This document shows, piece by piece, positions 2,335 to 53,081 of a DNA stretch of 61,072 bases (position 1 is the stretch's first letter; each line of letters opens with the position of its first letter). Under the pieces are notes generated by a model. The model was not told the origin of the DNA. It saw only the letters and a list, made by a program, of their open reading frames with translations, and did not search any database. Location of the stretch: positions 1-61,072 of the forward strand of contig JACPLR010000004.1 of NCBI GenBank assembly GCA_016186425.1, written 5' to 3'. The translations under genes were made by a program, and so were the position numbers. Origin of the DNA: Candidatus Pacearchaeota archaeon (lineage in GTDB: Archaea > Nanobdellota > Nanobdellia > Pacearchaeales > GW2011-AR1).

Positions 2335-2532
2335 TTATGATTTTTTAATCATGTTTGTTTTTTGTTTCTGGATCATTAACAATTTTGATAATGTTTTTTT
2401 AATATCTCTTATCTTTACTTTTCCGCCTTTCTTTGCAGCAACTCTGGCTTTTATAAGTTCTATTTTTATTTCATCTATTTCATTGTTTACTTCATCTTTT
2501 GTCAGCTTTGACAGCTCTTTAAACTTTGTCAT
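2335..2532 (-). CDS. rpl29: Ribosomal protein uL29
   Basis: Small two-helix protein at the polypeptide exit tunnel. The 65-residue sequence has the helix-turn-helix coiled hairpin and ends with the typical KIRDIKKTLSKLLMIQKQK block. Its start overlaps the end of uS3 by 4 nt and its stop lies 1 nt before aIF1, so the three genes are tightly coupled. Confidence 0.93.
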   Translation of the reverse strand: MTKFKELSKLTKDEVNNEIDEIKIELIKARVAAKKGGKVKIRDIKKTLSKLLMIQKQKTNMIKKS

Positions 2533-3140
2533 TTTTTATTTTCATCAATTTTTACCAATTTAATTTGATCATGTATCTTTGCATCTGGATGAAGAATACT
2601 TACGCTAATTCCAACAGTTCCGGGCCTTGTTCTTGCAACAGCAGAAGCTCTATCAACAACCTTTGCACTATCTCCAACTTTTTTCAAATATCCCTTCTTA
2701 AATCTCCATGTTTTTGCCCTTTCGCTTGGGAGTTTTCCAGCAAGTTTTATTTCAGCCCCTAATGCCCCGGCATTAATTATTTCCTGCAATAACTTATATG
2801 CTACTATTTTGAATTTTATAGGCCCTGTATTTTCAAGGCTTATTGCAATTTCATCTGCAACCGCCTGTGCATCAAGATTTCTGTCTTTTATTTCTTGAAT
2901 TTCAATATGGGGGTTTTCTAAATTAAATCTCTTCTTTAAAACTTCAGTAAGCTTCTCAATTTTCTCTCCTCCACGCCCGATTATTAATCCAGGCTTGCTT
3001 GTAAGCATAACAACCTTTTCTCCAACTGGTGTGTACTCAATATTAACCTTGCTTACTTTTCCTTTTCCCAAATACAATTTTACAAATTCTTTTACTTTAA
3101 ATTCATCTTTCTTAAATGTGACAAATTTTCTTTCTTCCAT
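2529..3140 (-). CDS. rps3: Ribosomal protein uS3
   Basis: Small-subunit head protein with a KH domain. GLIIGRGGEKIEKLTE is the KH GxxG loop, followed by HIEIQEIKDRNLDAQAVADEIA and the C-terminal S3 domain up to RPGTVGISVSIL. I choose the ATG at 3140 (MEERKFVTF) over an earlier ATG at 3155, because 3155 lies inside the upstream hairpin element. The start is preceded by one nucleotide and then the CCTTGG hairpin that fills the uL22-uS3 junction. Length is about 203 residues. Confidence 0.95.
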   Translation of the reverse strand: MEERKFVTFKKDEFKVKEFVKLYLGKGKVSKVNIEYTPVGEKVVMLTSKPGLIIGRGGEKIEKLTEVLKKRFNLENPHIEIQEIKDRNLDAQAVADEIAISLENTGPIKFKIVAYKLLQEIINAGALGAEIKLAGKLPSERAKTWRFKKGYLKKVGDSAKVVDRASAVARTRPGTVGISVSILHPDAKIHDQIKLVKIDENKK

Positions 3141-3177
3141 TATAAAAGACACCAAGGTTTCTTTTATGAAGCTTCCT
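3138..3177 (-). repeat. CCTTGG hairpin element at the uL22-uS3 junction
   Basis: On the minus strand the hairpin spans 3167-3142: arm ATAAAAGA, AACC, TTGGTG, arm TCTTTTAT, with 26 nt and one A-G mismatch. The upstream AAGGAAGCTTC encodes the last residues of uL22 (KEAS), and the uL22 stop TAA lies within the 5' arm. The uS3 ATG follows after one A. If the stem folds, the AAGGA motif is brought to about 7 nt from the ATG. This is the only minus-strand copy in the window and the only one inside the S10 operon. Confidence 0.85.
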
Positions 3178-3790
3178 TCATTACCTTAGTTGCTACCTCC
3201 CGAGCTTTTATTAAAACATGAGTTCGTTTGAATTTAGTGTTTCCAAACCTATGATGCTGTACTGGCGCTTTATTCGGAATAGTTTCATAGATTATTGTTT
3301 TATCCAAGTCCATGCCATTAACATTGCTGTTTGCAGAAAGAGTTTTTAGCAGATTTATAAATTCCTTTGAAGCATTGACATGGTATTTTCCAGACATCAT
3401 CCCCTTTCCTCTTCTATGGGCCATTTCTCCCACTACTGGAACAGCCATTTTTTTCTTTATGACCTTCTCTAAGTCAGAAATTGCGGAAGAAATTTTTTTA
3501 TTTCGGATAAATTTGCCTATTGCAACACTATGCCTTAAGGATATTGGCAAATTTCTTCCATAAATAGTTGCTTCTGTTCTCTTTATTTTCTTTTCATCTT
3601 TTTTCTTGACTTGTTCTTTTGCTTCTTCAGATTTACTTTCCCCTGTTTTATCAATTTTTTTATCATCAATATTTTCCCTTTCTGATTTTGCAGCAGTTTT
3701 TGAAGCTTGAGCTATATATTCCTTATTTTTTATTTCTTTTCCTGCTTTCTCCTTAGGAATTCTTTGCTGTTTTAATTGTTCATCTGCCAT
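3164..3790 (-). CDS. rpl22: Ribosomal protein uL22 with long basic N-terminal extension
   Basis: Large-subunit protein lining the exit tunnel. The uL22 core starts near residue 75 (IYGRNLPISLRHSVAIGKFI) and includes the tunnel beta-hairpin region AHRRGKGMMSGKYHVNASKEF and the C-terminal APVQHHRFGNTKFKRTHV block. The first 70 residues are a Lys/Glu-rich low-complexity extension unusual for this family. The last codons and the stop overlap the CCTTGG hairpin element preceding uS3. Confidence 0.93.
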   Translation of the reverse strand: MADEQLKQQRIPKEKAGKEIKNKEYIAQASKTAAKSERENIDDKKIDKTGESKSEEAKEQVKKKDEKKIKRTEATIYGRNLPISLRHSVAIGKFIRNKKISSAISDLEKVIKKKMAVPVVGEMAHRRGKGMMSGKYHVNASKEFINLLKTLSANSNVNGMDLDKTIIYETIPNKAPVQHHRFGNTKFKRTHVLIKAREVATKVMKEAS

Positions 3791-11657: not shown

Positions 11658-11756
11658 GCAAATTATATGGAATTTAATGGCGATAATTATAATAAATTTT
11701 AAATTTAATTGACACCTATAAAAAATTAGGCTGAGTTATGGTATGATTTCAGAATT

Positions 11757-11832
11757 AAAGGAAGATTCATAAAAGAAAACCTTGGCATTTAAAAGGAAGT
11801 TATTATAGAAGAAACCTTGGTGTCTTCTATTC
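11757..11832 (+). repeat. CCTTGG hairpin element, two units
   Basis: Unit 1 (11757-11790) has only the 5' arm and CCTTGG. Unit 2 (11791-11832) has a full hairpin at 11805-11830 with arms ATAGAAGA/TCTTCTAT. No start codon follows. It lies in the 3' intergenic region of the AMP phosphorylase gene. Confidence 0.8.
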
Positions 11833-11833
11833 T

Positions 11834-11880
11834 TGAATCACTACAATAATAAATTTTTCTATGTGAAAAATTTAACATAA
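11834..11880 (+). repeat. AAATTTTTC/GAAAAATTT intergenic palindrome with TTGAATCA lead
   Basis: Contains CTTGAATCACTACAATAA followed by arms at 11851-11859 and 11865-11873 and the trailing TTTAACATAA. This is the most complete plus-strand copy of the family. Confidence 0.75.
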
Positions 11881-12028
11881 CTTTTAATGAGCATTATGTA
11901 AGTTTGGTTAATTAATTATATTTTATCAATGAATATCAATCGCTTACTCCATATAAATTAAGCAAAGTTATGGCATGATTTCAAAATAATTTTATAGAAT
12001 ATTAATATACAGATATTTGAAAAAAATA

Positions 12029-18249: not shown

Positions 18250-18362
18250 AAAAGGAGAGTTCATAAAGAGAAACCTTGGTTATTTAAGGAAGTTATTATA
18301 GAAGAAAACTTGGTGTCTTCTATGTTTGATAAAGAAAACCTTGGTTGTCTTTATTTTTTATA
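18250..18362 (+). repeat. CCTTGG hairpin element, three units, in front of the CARF-like gene
   Basis: Unit 1 (18250-18285) carries GGAGAGTTCATAAAGAG and CCTTGG without the 3' arm. Unit 2 has a full hairpin at 18298-18323 (ATAGAAGA/TCTTCTAT). Unit 3 has a full hairpin at 18329-18354 (ATAAAGA/TCTTTAT) followed by a T-run and then ATG at 18363. Three different arm subtypes are therefore present side by side. Confidence 0.85.
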
Positions 18363-18713
18363 ATGGAATTGGTAGCATTATTAAGCTCTGGAAAAGGAAC
18401 ATGGGCTCAGGTCTCTGGCTTGATTAAATATGGTGAATGGGATAAGATAATTGTTATTGGCGGAGATTTTGCCAAGGAATTTAAGGCAGATAAAAAATTT
18501 GAATTTATAAAAATTAATCAGGATAGCAAGCTTCTTGAACTAAAAAAAGAAATTTCCGATAAGCTAAAAGGAAAAATAAATGGCACTGAGGCAGCATTAA
18601 GCATTGCTTCTGGAGATGGCAAGGAACATATGGCTTTGATTTCAGCATTATTATCTTTGCCTGTAGGAGTTAGATTCGTTGCTTTAACCAAAGACGGAAT
18701 AGTTTATCTGTAA
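18363..18713 (+). CDS. Small CARF/Rossmann-like protein (116 aa)
   Basis: I start at 18363 (MELVALLSSGKGTWAQVSGL), because earlier start codons fall inside the hairpin element. The fold pattern is Rossmann-like: an N-terminal strand with LSSGKGTW, strand KIIVIGG, and a C-terminal IASGDGKEHMALISALLSLP followed by a final strand. The G-D-G-K-x-x-M-A-L motif after a strand recalls the ligand loop of CARF domains, but no effector domain is attached. No CRISPR array is in the window. Assignment is tentative. Confidence 0.6.
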   Translation: MELVALLSSGKGTWAQVSGLIKYGEWDKIIVIGGDFAKEFKADKKFEFIKINQDSKLLELKKEISDKLKGKINGTEAALSIASGDGKEHMALISALLSLPVGVRFVALTKDGIVYL

Positions 18714-18868: not shown

Positions 18869-19046
18869 AATTTATTATATTAATCAGTAAATATGATTTA
18901 TATACCTTTCTATTTTTATAAATTTCTATGAAAAATAAATATTTTAGAAGTTTAATTTACAAAAAATAAATGGATAATTAAGGAGATTATATTAAAATTT
19001 TATTATTATAATTTAACCATATAATAAATCAATACTAAATCATGCC

Positions 19047-19088
19047 AAATTTTTCTTTAATGAAAAATTTTTATTGTAGTGATTCAAG
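19047..19088 (-). repeat. AAATTTTTC/GAAAAATTT intergenic palindrome (minus orientation)
   Basis: Read on the minus strand it starts CTTGAATCACTACAATAA and continues into arms at 19062-19070 and 19047-19055. It matches the copy at 11834-11880 closely in the opposite direction. Confidence 0.75.
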
Positions 19089-19188
19089 ATTTTTTTGAAA
19101 TAATGTAATATTTCTTCCTAATTTTTACGTTATAACTACTAGTTTTAAAATATTTTTATTTATGTCCATTGGAAATTTATATCATAAG

Positions 19189-20880: not shown

Positions 20881-21081
20881 TTTTTGTTTTTATATGTTTA
20901 TTTCGTTTATGAATATGCCAATATAATTGTTAATTAATAGTTTATCAGTAACTTTCTCATTTAAATTAGGTAAAGATATGGTGTGTTTAGCCGAATATAA
21001 ATAATTTCTTTTTAGTTTTATTATTTTAAATAAGTTCATTTTATCTTTTAAAATTTTTATATCTTTATTTTGTTTAAGAGA

Positions 21082-24372: not shown

Positions 24373-24694
24373 CAAGTGATAATTATTTAAATTAAAAAAA
24401 GATTTATGGGTGATTATCAACAGGATGTTTGGTAACTTGAATTAATATCTATAAAAAATAGGAAGAGAGGAGGCATGTTTTCAGAACAATTTTGAAAATC
24501 TTGAATTATTACAATAACTTTCCATGATTTATTCGCTTGAGATAATTGATTATTAAATTATAATCAGACACTTTCATATAATAAGTTAGGTAAGGTTATT
24601 GTATGTTTTCAAAATGTTTAGCTAATATTGCAATATCTTTCCCTTATTTATATGGGTAATCGCTCTAGATTAATTTTTTGATTTCTAATCACAA

Positions 24695-25555: not shown

Positions 25556-25598
25556 AATGAAAAATGATAATTTGGTTGCTGGATGCCTAAAATTAAAT

Positions 25599-25681
25599 GA
25601 AAGGAGAGTTCATAAAGAGAAACCTTGGTTATTAAAAGGAAAGTTTGATAAAGAAAACCTTGGTTGTCTTTATTTTTTATA
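25599..25681 (+). repeat. CCTTGG hairpin element, two units, in front of uL11
   Basis: Unit 1 (25599-25633) is the GGAGAGTTCATAAAGAG subtype without a 3' arm. Unit 2 has a full hairpin at 25648-25673 (ATAAAGA/TCTTTAT), then TTTTTATA and the uL11 ATG at 25682. The final unit is nearly identical to the one preceding the CARF-like gene. Confidence 0.85.
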
Positions 25682-27237: not shown

Positions 27238-27282
27238 AGGAGAGTTCATAAAGAGAACCATGGGTTCTTTTTATTTTTTATA
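27236..27282 (+). repeat. CCTTGG hairpin element (CCATGGG variant) in front of eL43
   Basis: AAAGGAGAGTTC is followed by a hairpin at 27248-27274 with arms ATAAAGAGAACC and GGTTCTTTTTAT and a 3-nt ATG loop, then TTTTTATA and the ATG at 27283. The start of the element overlaps the TAA of the homing endonuclease frame. Confidence 0.85.
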
Positions 27283-27583: not shown

Positions 27584-27623
27584 TTAAGGAGATGTCATAA
27601 GAAGAGCCTTGGTTCTTTTTATA
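27584..27623 (+). repeat. CCTTGG hairpin element in front of rpoP
   Basis: TTAAGGAGATGTC is followed by a hairpin at 27597-27622 (ATAAGAAGAGCC/GGTTCTTTTTAT), one A, and the rpoP ATG. AAGGAG lies 5 nt before the stem, so with the stem folded the effective spacing to the ATG is 6 nt. Copies at 41785 and 53043 are nearly identical. Confidence 0.88.
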
Positions 27624-27761
27624 ATGGCCGGATATAAATGCTTTAAATGCGGAAAAGAAATTTCAAGTAAGAAACTGGACAAGAGATTTACTTGCCCTCA
27701 TTGCAACTCACGGATTTTTTACAAGCCAAGAGTTGCATCTGTAAAAATTAAAACAAATTAA
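27624..27761 (+). CDS. rpoP: DNA-directed RNA polymerase subunit P (Rpb12)
   Basis: A 45-residue zinc-ribbon subunit, MAGYKCFKCGKEIS onwards. Cysteines 6, 9, 24 and 27 coordinate zinc, and CPHCNSRIFYKPR is diagnostic. Translation start is fixed by the hairpin ending 1 nt upstream. Confidence 0.95.
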   Translation: MAGYKCFKCGKEISSKKLDKRFTCPHCNSRIFYKPRVASVKIKTN

Positions 27762-28853: not shown

Positions 28854-29096
28854 AAATTTCTTTTTAAGGAGATGTCATAAGAAGAACCTTGACACTTAAA
28901 AGGAGAGTTCATAAAGAGAACCTTGGCATTTTAAGAGGAAGCTTCATAAAAAAAACCTTGGCTATTAAAAGGAAAGTTTCATAAAAAAAACCTTGGCTAT
29001 TAAAAGGAAAGTTTCATAAAGAAAACCTTGGCTATTAAAAGGAAAGTTTCATAAAGAAAACCATTGGTTGTCTTTATTATTTAACATAATTTATTA
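28854..29096 (+). repeat. AAATTTC palindrome interrupted by a CCTTGG array
   Basis: The left half (CTTGAATCATTATGATACTA, AAATTTC at 28854-28860) and the right half (ATTTAACATAATTTATTAG, 29079-29096) match the intact copy at 24334-24372. The six-unit CCTTGG array sits exactly in the loop between them, which implies insertion or expansion within the palindrome. Confidence 0.7.
28865..29078 (+). repeat. CCTTGG hairpin array, six tandem units
   Basis: Units of 33-36 nt follow one another. The first is the GGAGATGTCATAAG subtype, the second GGAGAGTTCATAAAGAG, and the next four GGAAGCTTC or GGAAAGTTTC subtypes. Only the last unit keeps the 3' arm, giving one complete hairpin at 29051-29077 (ATAAAGAAAACC/GGTTGTCTTTAT). 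No start codon follows, and the next gene is on the minus strand. Unit order and the missing 3' arms suggest slippage or stepwise insertion. Confidence 0.88.
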
Positions 29097-34530: not shown

Positions 34531-34671
34531 ATAATTTTTATATTGATTATATTTATAAGTATTTGGATATAAATTGTATTGAAGAAATTAAATTAAAAAT
34601 CAGTAACTTTCTCATTTAAATTAGGGAGAGGGATAGTAATTATTCAAAATATTTTGAAAATGTATAATAAT

Positions 34672-34694
34672 AAATTTTTCTTCTATGAAAAATT
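34672..34694. repeat. AAATTTTTC/GAAAAATT intergenic palindrome
   Basis: Arms at 34672-34680 and 34687-34694, followed by AGCATAATTTATAGC. Upstream is CAGTAACTTTCTCATTTAAATTAGG, a motif also near 20947 and, inverted, near 45400. Confidence 0.7.
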
Positions 34695-34767
34695 AGCATA
34701 ATTTATAGCTGTTTTAAGTTAGTTGCTGGATTAAATAGATTAATTTGTATAATTTTAATTTATTGTA

Positions 34768-36998: not shown

Positions 36999-37274
36999 AA
37001 ATATCGCAATATTTTACCTGGTTTATATGGGTAATCTACTTGCTTAGATTTAATTAAATATTAGTATATAACTTATACCACAATTAATCCGCCCGCCATC
37101 CCCCATCCACCTCCCGAAAGTAGCGAGCGCAGAGAACTAACTCGTTAGGTGATTAGCATTATAATTTATAGTATATATTTTATGGAAAATAACTAGAGAC
37201 CAATAATTCTAGCGAATAAAGTAGGGAAAGGTATTGCAGTATTTCAAAAACATTCTTGAATCTATACAAACACT

Positions 37275-37298
37275 AAATTTCTCATTTAGGAGAAATTT
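37275..37298 (+). repeat. AAATTTCTC/GAGAAATTT intergenic palindrome
   Basis: Perfect 9-nt arms, preceded by TTCTTGAATCTATACAAACAC and followed by ATCCTGATTTATAGTTG. The change TTC to CTC on one arm is matched by GAG on the other, so the stem is conserved by compensatory change. Confidence 0.75.
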
Positions 37299-37358
37299 AT
37301 CCTGATTTATAGTTGTTTAAATAAAGCTCTTTAATATTGATGAAATAGTTTTAATTTA

Positions 37359-37556
37359 ATGGCAACAATAGCCGTGCCCGACCGAAGGGCATTAAATCGA
37401 CAAGTTATAAAAGGAAAGTTTCATAAAGAAAAACATTGGCTATTAAAAGGAAGTTTCATAAAAGAAACCCTAGGTCTATTAAAAGGAAGTTTCATAAAAG
37501 AAACCTTGGTGTCTTTTATTCTTTATTATAGTTCTCACAAGAAGTTAAAAAAATAA
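37359..37556 (+). other. Short frame running into the CCTTGG array (not a confident gene)
   Basis: ATG at 37359 opens MATIAVPDRRALNRQV, whose first 17 codons contain the hairpin TGCCC/GGGCA, then the frame reads through all three CCTTGG units (FHKEKHWLLKGSFIKET). The repeat-derived residues argue against a real protein. The first codons may be a remnant of a gene that the array invaded. Confidence 0.25.
37409..37530 (+). repeat. CCTTGG hairpin array, three units
   Basis: Units of 34-36 nt: GGAAAGTTTCATAAAGAA, then two GGAAGTTTCATAAAAGAA subtypes. The last unit has a full hairpin at 37494-37519 with arms ATAAAAGA/TCTTTTAT, then CTTTATTATA. It lies 65 nt from the 3' end of the convergent S-layer gene. 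Confidence 0.85.
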
Positions 37557-40624: not shown

Positions 40625-40687
40625 AAAAAAGGAAAGTTTGCAATTTAAAGGGAGAGTTCATAAAGAGAACCGTAGGTGCTTTTTATT
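40625..40687 (+). repeat. CCTTGG hairpin element (CCGTAGG variant) in front of the winged-helix gene
   Basis: A partial unit AAAAAAGGAAAGTTTG (40625-40639) precedes a full one. AAAGGGAGAGTTC is followed by a hairpin at 40660-40686 (ATAAAGAGAACC/GGTGCTTTTTAT, GTA loop), one T, and the ATG at 40688. AAGGGAG ends 5 nt before the stem, so the effective spacing to the ATG is 6 nt when folded. Confidence 0.82.
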
Positions 40688-41053
40688 ATGGCTGAGAAAA
40701 CAAGAATAATAGATATTTATGAAAAATCCGGCGCTTTTAGCATGGCTTCTGTATTCAGAAAATTCACAGGCAAGAAGGAAGATTATAATTACGGGGATTT
40801 AAGGATTTTAAGGCAGCTTTTAAGCAATGAAAAAGCCCGACTCTTGCACACTGTTAAGACTAAAAAACCAGTGTCTATTTATGCCTTAGCCAAGGTTCTT
40901 GGGAGGGATTTTAAAAGCGTTAGAGATGACATAATTCTGCTTAAGAAGTTCGGTTTCATAGATCTTATTGCAGAAAAAGGCGGAAAAGGCAAGAGAATAA
41001 GGCACAGGCCTATTATAACTAGTTCAACAATTAATGTTGTTATAAGGATCTAA
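40688..41053 (+). CDS. Winged-helix transcriptional regulator (121 aa)
   Basis: MAEKTRIIDIYEKSGAFSMA starts at the ATG after the hairpin; a GTG inside the hairpin is not used. The helix-turn-helix core is VKTKKPVSIYALAKVLGRDFKSVRDDIILLKKFGFIDLI with a wing rich in Lys/Arg/Gly (EKGGKGKRIRHRPI), an MarR/GntR-like archaeal regulator pattern. Divergent from the S-layer gene with 490 nt between, so it could control the S-layer gene, but that is inference. Confidence 0.8.
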   Translation: MAEKTRIIDIYEKSGAFSMASVFRKFTGKKEDYNYGDLRILRQLLSNEKARLLHTVKTKKPVSIYALAKVLGRDFKSVRDDIILLKKFGFIDLIAEKGGKGKRIRHRPIITSSTINVVIRI

Positions 41054-41182
41054 GTTTATTATTAAATTTTGAAATTATAAGAACAAATTAATCATGTTAA
41101 ATAGCTTAAGTTAATCAATTAATCTCAATTATTTTAACATTAAAATCAGGGAAAAATATAGCATGATTTCAAAACCATTGAC

Positions 41183-41227
41183 TATTAAAGGAAGTTATTA
41201 TAGAAGAAAACTTGGTGTCTTTTATTA
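41183..41227 (+). repeat. CCTTGG hairpin element overlapping the 3' end of a pilin-like gene
   Basis: Full hairpin at 41200-41225 (ATAGAAGA/TCTTTTAT, one G-T wobble) directly preceded by GGAAGTT. Its 3' end touches the stop codon of the minus-strand gene 41225-41770. No plus-strand gene follows. Upstream is the motif AGCATGATTTCAAAACC. Confidence 0.75.
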
Positions 41228-41784: not shown

Positions 41785-41824
41785 TTAAGGAGATGTCATA
41801 AGAAGAACCTTGGTTCTTTTTATT
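41785..41824 (+). repeat. CCTTGG hairpin element between two pilin-like genes
   Basis: TTAAGGAGATGTC then a hairpin at 41798-41823 (ATAAGAAGAACC/GGTTCTTTTTAT). The stop codon of the minus-strand gene 41820-42362 lies inside the 3' arm. About 39 bases are identical to the copy at 53043-53081, 11 kb away. Confidence 0.88.
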
Positions 41825-43416: not shown

Positions 43417-43621
43417 CTTTTATTTATCTTAGTTAATAAAATATAGTATATAAATTATTTCAGGAGAAAGTTATACCTACATTTTTGTAATATGGTCTAT
43501 TTTGTAGGTATAACTGATAATTATAACTTTATAAAAATAAAAGAGATAGTAGCCCGCCCATATAATGTATATGGAAATATTGCGTATTAATTCAAGATGT
43601 TTTTGAATCACTACAATAAAT

Positions 43622-43643
43622 AAATTTTCATTCAAGAAAATTT
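43622..43643 (+). repeat. AAATTTTC/GAAAATTT intergenic palindrome overlapping a gene end
   Basis: Preceded by TTTTGAATCACTACAATAAA. The right arm lies inside the last codons of the minus-strand gene 43632-44750, so the repeat supplies its stop region. Confidence 0.65.
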
Positions 43644-44750
43644 ATGCAAGCTACTAGATAAATTAATACATCTATCTTTTGCAGTAATGCTAGTATTAAT
43701 AGTATTACAAATAGAACTATTTTGTTGAACTAAAGCCTGCCTTGTAAAACATAAAGTTTTAAGATCTTGATCTAAAATGTCTGAGCAAAAATATTCCCCA
43801 TTAGGTATACTAACATCAAATTTAACAACATATTTGTAACACTCCTCTTTTGAACTTACAGGATAATACCCTCCTATTATCTGCTTATCTCTTAAAGATA
43901 ATATACTAATAGTACTACAAATAGAATTATCTATAGGCTTAACTGCCAATTTAATTTCTAAAACTCTATAACACGAAGATTTAAAAAAATTTGGTTTTCC
44001 AAGCAAGTCACACATAACACTAAAATCTCTTCCGATAATTCTATCTTTATAACATGAGATATAATAACTCAAACTTGTAGTTGTATTGGGAATATTATCA
44101 CAGTCTGACTGTTCTAAAGGATAACCACTTTTATATATAATAGAAAATTCTTTATACCAACCGTAATAATTCATTACAAAAAAGATTAATGAAAAAACTA
44201 ATAATAGTATAAGAAAAATATATTCTATCTTCTTTGCTATATTCTTAATAAAATAATCTTTTCCCTTAATTTTTTCTACAATACGACTTATACTGGCACC
44301 TATCATAAATGGAGGTAAAATTATAATGAGGTATAAATGAAGTTTGTTAGCAACAATTGGGAAAATATATCTGGAATGTAAAGTATTTTGTAAAAACGCC
44401 CAGAAAATAAAAGAAATCAAAATCCCAAATACTCCCCATTTAAACCAATTAAGATTTTTCTTTTCCAAAAAACCAATCAATAATCCAATTAAAAAATAAA
44501 AAAGGCTTATTGTTAATATAAAAATGGGTTGTATTAAAAGAACACCAAGTAAGGTATAACGAAGAAACATTTCAAAAGTAATTGAAAAAATTGATATTTT
44601 ATTACAAAAAGACGTATCGAAACTACCAAAAAAATTTAAAAAATGACATCCGCCCGTAAAATTTAAAATCCCTATCAATAATCCAAATAATAACCCATAA
44701 ACACCCCACCTAAAAGTTACACTGGATTGCCACTTCTCTTTTAAATTCAT
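43632..44750 (-). CDS. Membrane protein with C-terminal cysteine repeats (372 aa)
   Basis: N-terminal half has about five transmembrane helices (VYGLLFGLLIGILNFTGGCH onwards). The C-terminal half carries repeated C-x-n-I/L-C-Y patterns (SDCDNIPNTTTSLSYYISCY, SVMCDLLGKPNFFKSSCY, NSICSTISILSLRDKQII, SKEECYKYV, YFCSDILDQDLKTLCF, SSICNTINTSITAKDRC). The same repeat type fills the plus-strand gene 46358-47479. No function known. Confidence 0.75.
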   Translation of the reverse strand: MNLKEKWQSSVTFRWGVYGLLFGLLIGILNFTGGCHFLNFFGSFDTSFCNKISIFSITFEMFLRYTLLGVLLIQPIFILTISLFYFLIGLLIGFLEKKNLNWFKWGVFGILISFIFWAFLQNTLHSRYIFPIVANKLHLYLIIILPPFMIGASISRIVEKIKGKDYFIKNIAKKIEYIFLILLLVFSLIFFVMNYYGWYKEFSIIYKSGYPLEQSDCDNIPNTTTSLSYYISCYKDRIIGRDFSVMCDLLGKPNFFKSSCYRVLEIKLAVKPIDNSICSTISILSLRDKQIIGGYYPVSSKEECYKYVVKFDVSIPNGEYFCSDILDQDLKTLCFTRQALVQQNSSICNTINTSITAKDRCINLSSSLHKFS

Positions 44751-45315: not shown

Positions 45316-45473
45316 AATTAATTTAATAGAAGTTGATTATTAAAGGTTACGAATTTATTTAAAGAAATGTTCTGAAAATACTGCAATATCTCTGCCTAAT
45401 TTAAATGAGAAAGTTTCTGAGTTAAATCACCATAAATTAATCTCTTAGCTTAATAAATAAATCATATTAAATT

Positions 45474-53042: not shown

Positions 53043-53081
53043 TTAAGGAGATGTCATAAGAAGAACCTTGGTTCTTTTTAT
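53043..53081 (+). repeat. CCTTGG hairpin element at the 3' end of the 266-aa pilin-like gene
   Basis: Same sequence as the element at 41785-41824: TTAAGGAGATGTC and a hairpin at 53056-53081 (ATAAGAAGAACC/GGTTCTTTTTAT). The stop codon of the minus-strand gene 53078-53878 is inside the 3' arm. Confidence 0.88.

Follow-up and report, generated by a model that had tools for sequence, protein, structure and literature searches.

A ribosome binding site that is split by an RNA stem has been described in phage T4, where folding of the stem shortens the distance between the Shine-Dalgarno (SD) sequence and the AUG from 22 nt to 5 nt in gene 38, and from 27 nt to 11 nt in gene 25 (PMC3014915). Modular interspersed repeats are exemplified by the BOX elements of Streptococcus pneumoniae, which vary in unit number, reach ~125 copies per genome and are scarce in related species; they form a folded RNA if transcribed, form ORFs and occur in 5′ leaders (PMC3049150). 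The locus analysed here is a stretch of 61,072 nt (the window), i.e. contig 21 of a draft Pacearchaeota genome of 868,632 bases, and it resembles both systems. Three of its start codons (27624, 3140 and 40688) follow an AAGGAG-like motif and a 26–27 nt stem-loop by 1 nt, exactly as a sequence-only reading of this DNA had described, with a linear SD–ATG distance of about 32 nt (32 nt at rpoP). That reading had proposed an SD bridged to the start codon by the hairpin, and the T4 precedent that it invoked is real (genes 38/25). We assign a probability of about 45% to the reading that a mobile repeat serves as 5′ leader, with a bridged SD that recruits the 30S subunit.

A palindromic repeat of modular build in one Pacearchaeota genus

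The repeat unit comprises a AAAAGGAG/AAGGAAAG-like motif, 5–7 nt of spacer and then a 12-bp hairpin, whose arms read ATAARARRRACC (5′) and GGTNNYTTTTAT (3′) around a loop of 2–3 nt. Its 34–35 nt run through (CTATT)AAAAGGA, a G/A-rich stretch, a TCATAA-type arm, ACC and the loop. Units occur singly or in tandem, with 1–6 of them per array; the matching 3′ arm, GGT...TTTAT, is present solely in the last unit, while in the inner units CCTTGG runs straight into the following unit. Several sub-families were distinguished, which differ in both arms jointly. The window copies are listed in Table 1, and three further window starts (18363, 25682 of uL11 and 27283 of eL43) have the hairpin 7–8 nt upstream.

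Table 1. Coordinates of the repeat copies and adjoining genes in the window
Feature	Coordinates	Strand	Remark
SD-like AAGGAG before rpoP	27586–27591	+	repeat copy
Hairpin before rpoP	27597–27622	+	then A, ATG 27624
rpoP, RNA polymerase 7-kDa zinc-ribbon subunit	27624–27761	+	Pfam PF03604, E 3.9e-5, just under cut-off
SD-like AAGGAA before uS3	3173–3178	-	within 3′ end of uL22
Hairpin before uS3	3142–3167	-	then A, ATG 3140; uL22 TAA stop in hairpin base
uS3 (rpsC)	2529–3140	-	
SD-like GGGAG before winged-helix gene	40650–40654	+	
Hairpin before winged-helix gene	40660–40686	+	then T, ATG 40688; AGGTG in loop/3′ arm
Winged-helix gene, HVO_A0114 family	40688–41053	+	Pfam PF25212
Hairpin copy before eL43	27248–27274	+	8 nt 5′ of ATG (27283)
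Two-unit copy before uL11	25595–25673	+	hairpin 25648–25673; ATG 25682
Three-unit array before gene at 18363	18250–18354	+	terminal hairpin 18329–18354
Six-unit tandem array	28864–29077	+	34–35 nt units, 3′ arm in last only
Three-unit array	37406–37519	+	last-unit hairpin 37494–37519
Two-unit copy	11757–11830	+	inside another interspersed repeat
Single copy	41187–41225	+	3′ of winged-helix gene
Single copy	41786–41823	+	antisense between two minus-strand genes; gives one its stop codon
Single copy	53043–53081	+	antisense to minus-strand gene's 3′ end

By pattern search with up to 3 mismatches, 56 matches were found in the genome versus 1 for the reversed control, and a covariance model built on 12 window copies retrieved at least 118 copies in this 0.87-Mb genome, a count from a single model that may miss divergent copies. 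Contigs C9, C11, C15 and C17 of the draft (G000) end or begin in or near repeat copies, so its copy number is probably underestimated. The sister species (G001), covered solely in the stretches surrounding its copies, yielded 96 copies when stricter filters were applied. Within the genus the remaining genomes carry 0–12 copies each, with none detected in G002, and genomes of other genera have no more than a few. Together with filled and empty sites between relatives, these counts bore out that the arrangement sits on a mobile-looking repeat. Both the family, a mobile palindromic repeat of modular build that belongs to one Pacearchaeota genus, and its structure are nearly certain. No account of it in Pacearchaeota was found in the open-access literature searched, and Rfam recognised no family in the window apart from tRNA.

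No partner enzyme for the repeat was found in the genome. The single Y1_Tnp gene (C19:42477) is not flanked by the palindrome, as a REP/RAYT system would have it; it is an IS200-type gene with own ends unrelated to the repeat, and was thus rejected as mobiliser. As for MITE features, one clean insertion of 48 nt lacks a clear target duplication, clean empty sites being few. Orientation along the replication strand, as in ssDNA transposition, was set aside, as some contigs are one-sided and others mixed. The idea that the copies serve mainly to encode a repeat peptide (KGKFDKENLG...) was rejected, given that the frames vary and most copies contain stops. A reverse-transcriptase-like ORF with a YVDD motif recognised by eye (L103:6624-7805; G000:C19:44623-45804, minus strand) lies beside a possible diversity-generating target ORF and adjoins an IS200-type element.

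Two other recurrent elements were observed. A second interspersed family (ATTTAAATTAGGNAAAGATATGGCATGATTTCAAAA ... TTGAATCACTACAATAATAAATTTTTC...GAAAAATTTANCATAA), which often has hairpin units inside, occupies window sites 11717-11886, 19037-19157, 20944-20982, 24440-24660, 34597-34707, 37208-37300, 41124-41179, 43586-43656 and 45366-45423. A different leader, AAACCTTAAGGTTTTAAAGGTTCCCAAAA, bears a small palindrome and recurs ~20–50 nt 5′ of start codons (window 3790, the uL22 start, 6900 and 20616; also L058, L073, L131 and L132); it could be a regulatory leader.

Stem conservation, placement and insertion history

The predicted RNA folds reach -9.4 (rpoP), -9.1 (uS3) and -7.2 kcal/mol (winged-helix gene), with single-sequence z-scores of -1.5, -1.9 and -0.6, respectively; such modest scores do not place the fold energy alone above chance, so the case for the stem is built on recurrence and covariation. 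In a 23-row alignment, 94.9% of the stem cells are paired and 7 of the 12 stem pairs have changed on both sides, a level attained by none of 500 shuffles, and sliding the pairing partner in the alignment abolishes the covariation signal. More than 20 cells are G-U pairs on the SD-bearing strand, and an A-G mismatch is conserved. As each such G-U is an A-C mismatch on the other strand, a single-stranded fold of the SD strand is favoured; the same one-strand pairs and the mismatch led us to reject a DNA operator palindrome. One large RNA fold of the tandem array was rejected too, 28864-29082 being no more stable than its shuffles.

Most copies are intergenic, and others lie antisense to genes, at gene ends, in tRNA introns or before start codons. 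At gene ends, ATAA of an antisense hairpin provides the stop codon, and for ~30 antisense ORFs the stop is no more than 7 nt from a hairpin edge. The sequence-only reading had missed the tandem arrays as well as the copies remote from starts, on the antisense side of genes or within tRNA introns. Three tRNA introns hold a copy antisense to the tRNA (L063:2437-2588, L090:6648-6802 and L115:1159-1295), with the Rfam tRNA call spanning the copy in each; L063 and L115, which belong to two species, apparently have the same intron occupied. In relatives, hairpins also directly abut tRNA 5′ ends, where no ribosome site is required. One copy directly follows the 3′ end of 16S rRNA (L155/L108, G020).

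Among 181 copies examined in two genomes, an ATG lies 0–1 nt past the hairpin in 22 and 5–8 nt past it in 9. This placement is strand-specific, which supports the sequence-only reading: when ORFs of at least 100 aa (simple ORF calls) were considered, their first ATG was located within 12 nt of a hairpin 21 times in sense, i.e. on the SD strand, versus 0 times in antisense. The adjoining genes are mainly informational or housekeeping, such as those for uS3, uL11, eL43, RpoP, RpoL, CDC48, FttA and SMC, as well as ThrRS, prefoldin, an Mre11-like protein, SecD/F and STT3.

Comparison of orthologous sites between the sister species revealed filled and empty states, e.g. at uL11, the winged-helix gene and G001 L132:15874. 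The uL11 and winged-helix sites are empty in G001, against which the uL11 copy is a clean insertion, and the prefoldin site is empty in the window genome. Where both sister species have a copy at an orthologous start, the sub-family usually differs while the order of motif, hairpin and ATG is kept; in G001 the sub-family has changed at uS3, rpoP, FttA, a zinc-ribbon gene and the gene at 18363. The window uS3 is 98% identical to that of the Pacearchaeota genome JAGVWP01, and uS3 matches were obtained in ten relatives; of these, only the sister species has the hairpin before the gene, and in most other relatives examined a plain SD stands 8–14 nt 5′ of the ATG. Orthologs of rpoP were found in 11 of 11 relatives searched. 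The gene appears leaderless in some of them (in L172, L177 and L179 the predicted TSS coincides with the ATG; others were judged by eye), and in L173 it has a strong plain SD. In G003 (L170), ~45 nt 5′ of rpoP, a decayed copy remains whose arm now reads TTTATAAA and scores 8.4 bits as a promoter, with a predicted TSS at -1, a possible conversion of repeat to promoter.

These distributions also bear on a selfish or neutral repeat of the REP, BOX or MITE kind, for which start positions would be tolerated or targeted insertions with no role in initiation. The majority of copies away from starts, those inside tRNA introns or at the ends of genes in antisense, and the blank in G002 all accord with it, but it is very unlikely as an account of the start copies in view of the strand asymmetry, the promoters upstream of start copies (see below) and the persistence at orthologous starts through changes of sub-family.

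Leader placement and the start signal

Native promoters in these genomes read AAgaTTTATAAAtt, beginning at -33 with the TATA box at -29 to -22, which implies that most first genes are leaderless. A native-type promoter with its TSS, predicted by a matrix trained on these genomes, 8–60 nt before the hairpin was identified for 11 of 31 start copies versus 9 of 147 other copies; scanning of the opposite strand gave 7 of 180 (p = 5e-5). Such predicted promoters place the SD-like motif and the hairpin in the leader of these genes. Transcripts beginning downstream of the hairpin, i.e. leaderless mRNAs, would speak against bridging, and in many cases the predicted TSS instead lies upstream of both elements. 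A leader function at starts is thus likely under these predictions, and the SD-like motif is probably part of the mRNA at start copies, in a genome otherwise mostly leaderless.

Alternatively, the copy itself could be a leaderless promoter, with the purine-rich box as BRE, the arm start TTYATAAA as a TATA box at about -30 and the ATG at +1. Most native genes are leaderless, the arm lies nearly at the native TATA position, the decayed copy at the G003 rpoP is predicted to act in this way, and hairpins abut tRNA 5′ ends in relatives; start copies also score slightly above others (p = 0.02, a post hoc statistic on related, non-independent copies). Nevertheless, no more than 2 of the 22 start copies score as high as 6 bits compared with a native upper quartile of ~8, one third of the start copies have a better promoter farther upstream, uS3 lies within an operon, and the covariation and one-strand G-U pairs of the stem are left unexplained, all of which makes a promoter role quite unlikely.

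Turning to the bridged SD, the effective SD–ATG spacing with the stem folded is 6–8 nt where the ATG follows 0–1 nt on (22 copies), including about 6–7 nt at rpoP as had been proposed, and 11–14 nt in the 9 copies with ATG 5–8 nt on; for the class at 7–8 nt it amounts to a poor 13–14 nt. All 31 start copies allow 5–7 nt of pairing to the 16S tail when G-U is permitted. The anti-SD, GGATCACCTCCT, was located in the 16S rRNA of same-genus G003, which confirms an anti-SD within the genus, while the 16S of the window genome itself is missing from the assembly. The supposed use of SD in this organism was not supported among ordinary genes: SD words precede ordinary ATGs at 23.5% versus 23.5% in the control, and genes are mostly leaderless. 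Moreover, the SD-like motif and hairpin are present in every copy whatever its site, tRNA introns and antisense positions included, and the motif is equally strong in start copies and in those far from starts, so the motif alone is no proof of translational use.

A competing start signal is offered by the hairpin itself, with AGGTG or AGGGG in the loop or 3′ arm as the working SD at a linear 9–11 nt, displayed by the stem or reached when the ribosome melts it, and the repeat still acting as leader. Such a word was found in 11 of the 22 start copies with ATG at 0–1 nt versus 12 of 159 others (p = 3.6e-6, post hoc, the test having been devised after the pattern was seen, and on related copies that are non-independent and may share descent). 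In three sub-families without the word by descent, 9 of 16 start copies have it versus 0 of 107, and in one sub-family all 4 start copies carry GGTGC for GGTTC despite the broken stem pair. Roughly one in two start copies of the 0/1-nt class thus has an SD word at ordinary linear distance, and bridging is unnecessary there. The word is, however, absent from the other half, the window rpoP included, and within these loops TAG doubles as an in-frame stop, which offers another reason for the word; overall, we consider a loop SD unlikely as the general explanation.

Translational coupling would require neither SD, as an upstream ORF running through the element would end on or across the start codon (TAATG or ATGA), with the hairpin passive there. 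At C5:14353 (Mre11-like), and likewise at the counterpart of this site in G001, a leaderless upstream ORF reads through the element and extends over the start; TAATG-ending ORFs precede uL11 and, in G001, uS3, and the uL22 stop falls at the base of the window uS3 hairpin. Yet most 0/1-nt starts have no ATG-led ORF across the hairpin, and the upstream peptides are a consequence of the repeat sequence itself, so coupling is improbable as the common mode.

On balance, spacing, strand placement and the anti-SD in the genus argue for the hairpin-bridged SD, and the SD in all copies, the loop SD words and the coupled upstream ORFs weaken it. For the 0/1-nt class, bridging across the stem is plausibly the single most likely mechanism, at no better than even odds. 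A copy inserted immediately before a start codon, in SD orientation, would become the 5′ leader and replace the gene's own start signal, be it an ordinary SD or, in leaderless genes, none. The 30S subunit would then most likely be recruited by the purine-rich SD-like motif, which the folded hairpin would bring up to a distance of 6–8 nt from the AUG, in the manner of T4 genes 38 and 25. Beside the computed repeat nature, insertion, orientation, structure conservation and anti-SD of the genus, it is this ribosomal use of the upstream motif across a folded stem that we infer. Judged from sequence, start copies are probably an imported ribosome landing site with two halves joined by an RNA hairpin. 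The wider proposition, that a DPANN repeat carries a complete split ribosome binding site (SD, hairpin and AUG) from place to place and converts leaderless or plain-SD essential genes, with the fold and not the sequence kept as sub-families swap, is more tentative and falls somewhat short of an even chance.

Significance and comparison with known systems

If this reading is true, genes for the ribosome and for RNA polymerase in a reduced archaeal genome take their start signal from a parasitic-looking repeat, and the split ribosome binding site is a recurrent cellular mechanism beyond a phage curiosity. The same genes in close relatives form a natural replacement series (no leader, plain SD, hairpin leader and promoter), which is useful for asking how a gene passes from leaderless to SD-led initiation or back.

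The likeness to T4 genes 38 and 25 is the stem between SD and AUG, which in the Pacearchaeota repeat would shorten ~32 nt to 6–8 nt. The T4 cases are two single phage genes tested by reporters and probing, whereas the archaeal arrangement, known from sequence alone, involves many chromosomal genes, a mobile repeat and a mostly leaderless genome. Resemblance to REP/RAYT systems lies in short extragenic palindromes at more than 100 copies, but the only Y1 transposase here is of the IS200 type, with ends unrelated to the repeat. With BOX, as with RUP and SPRITE, the repeat shares a modular, interspersed and folded nature, including the variable unit number. Compared with BOX by description and not by module sequence, it differs in its 34–35 nt units with one terminal hairpin; and unlike BOX, RUP and SPRITE, it carries an SD-like motif and sits flush against start codons. 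Neither inverted repeats at its termini nor a duplicated target was evident at the sites compared here.
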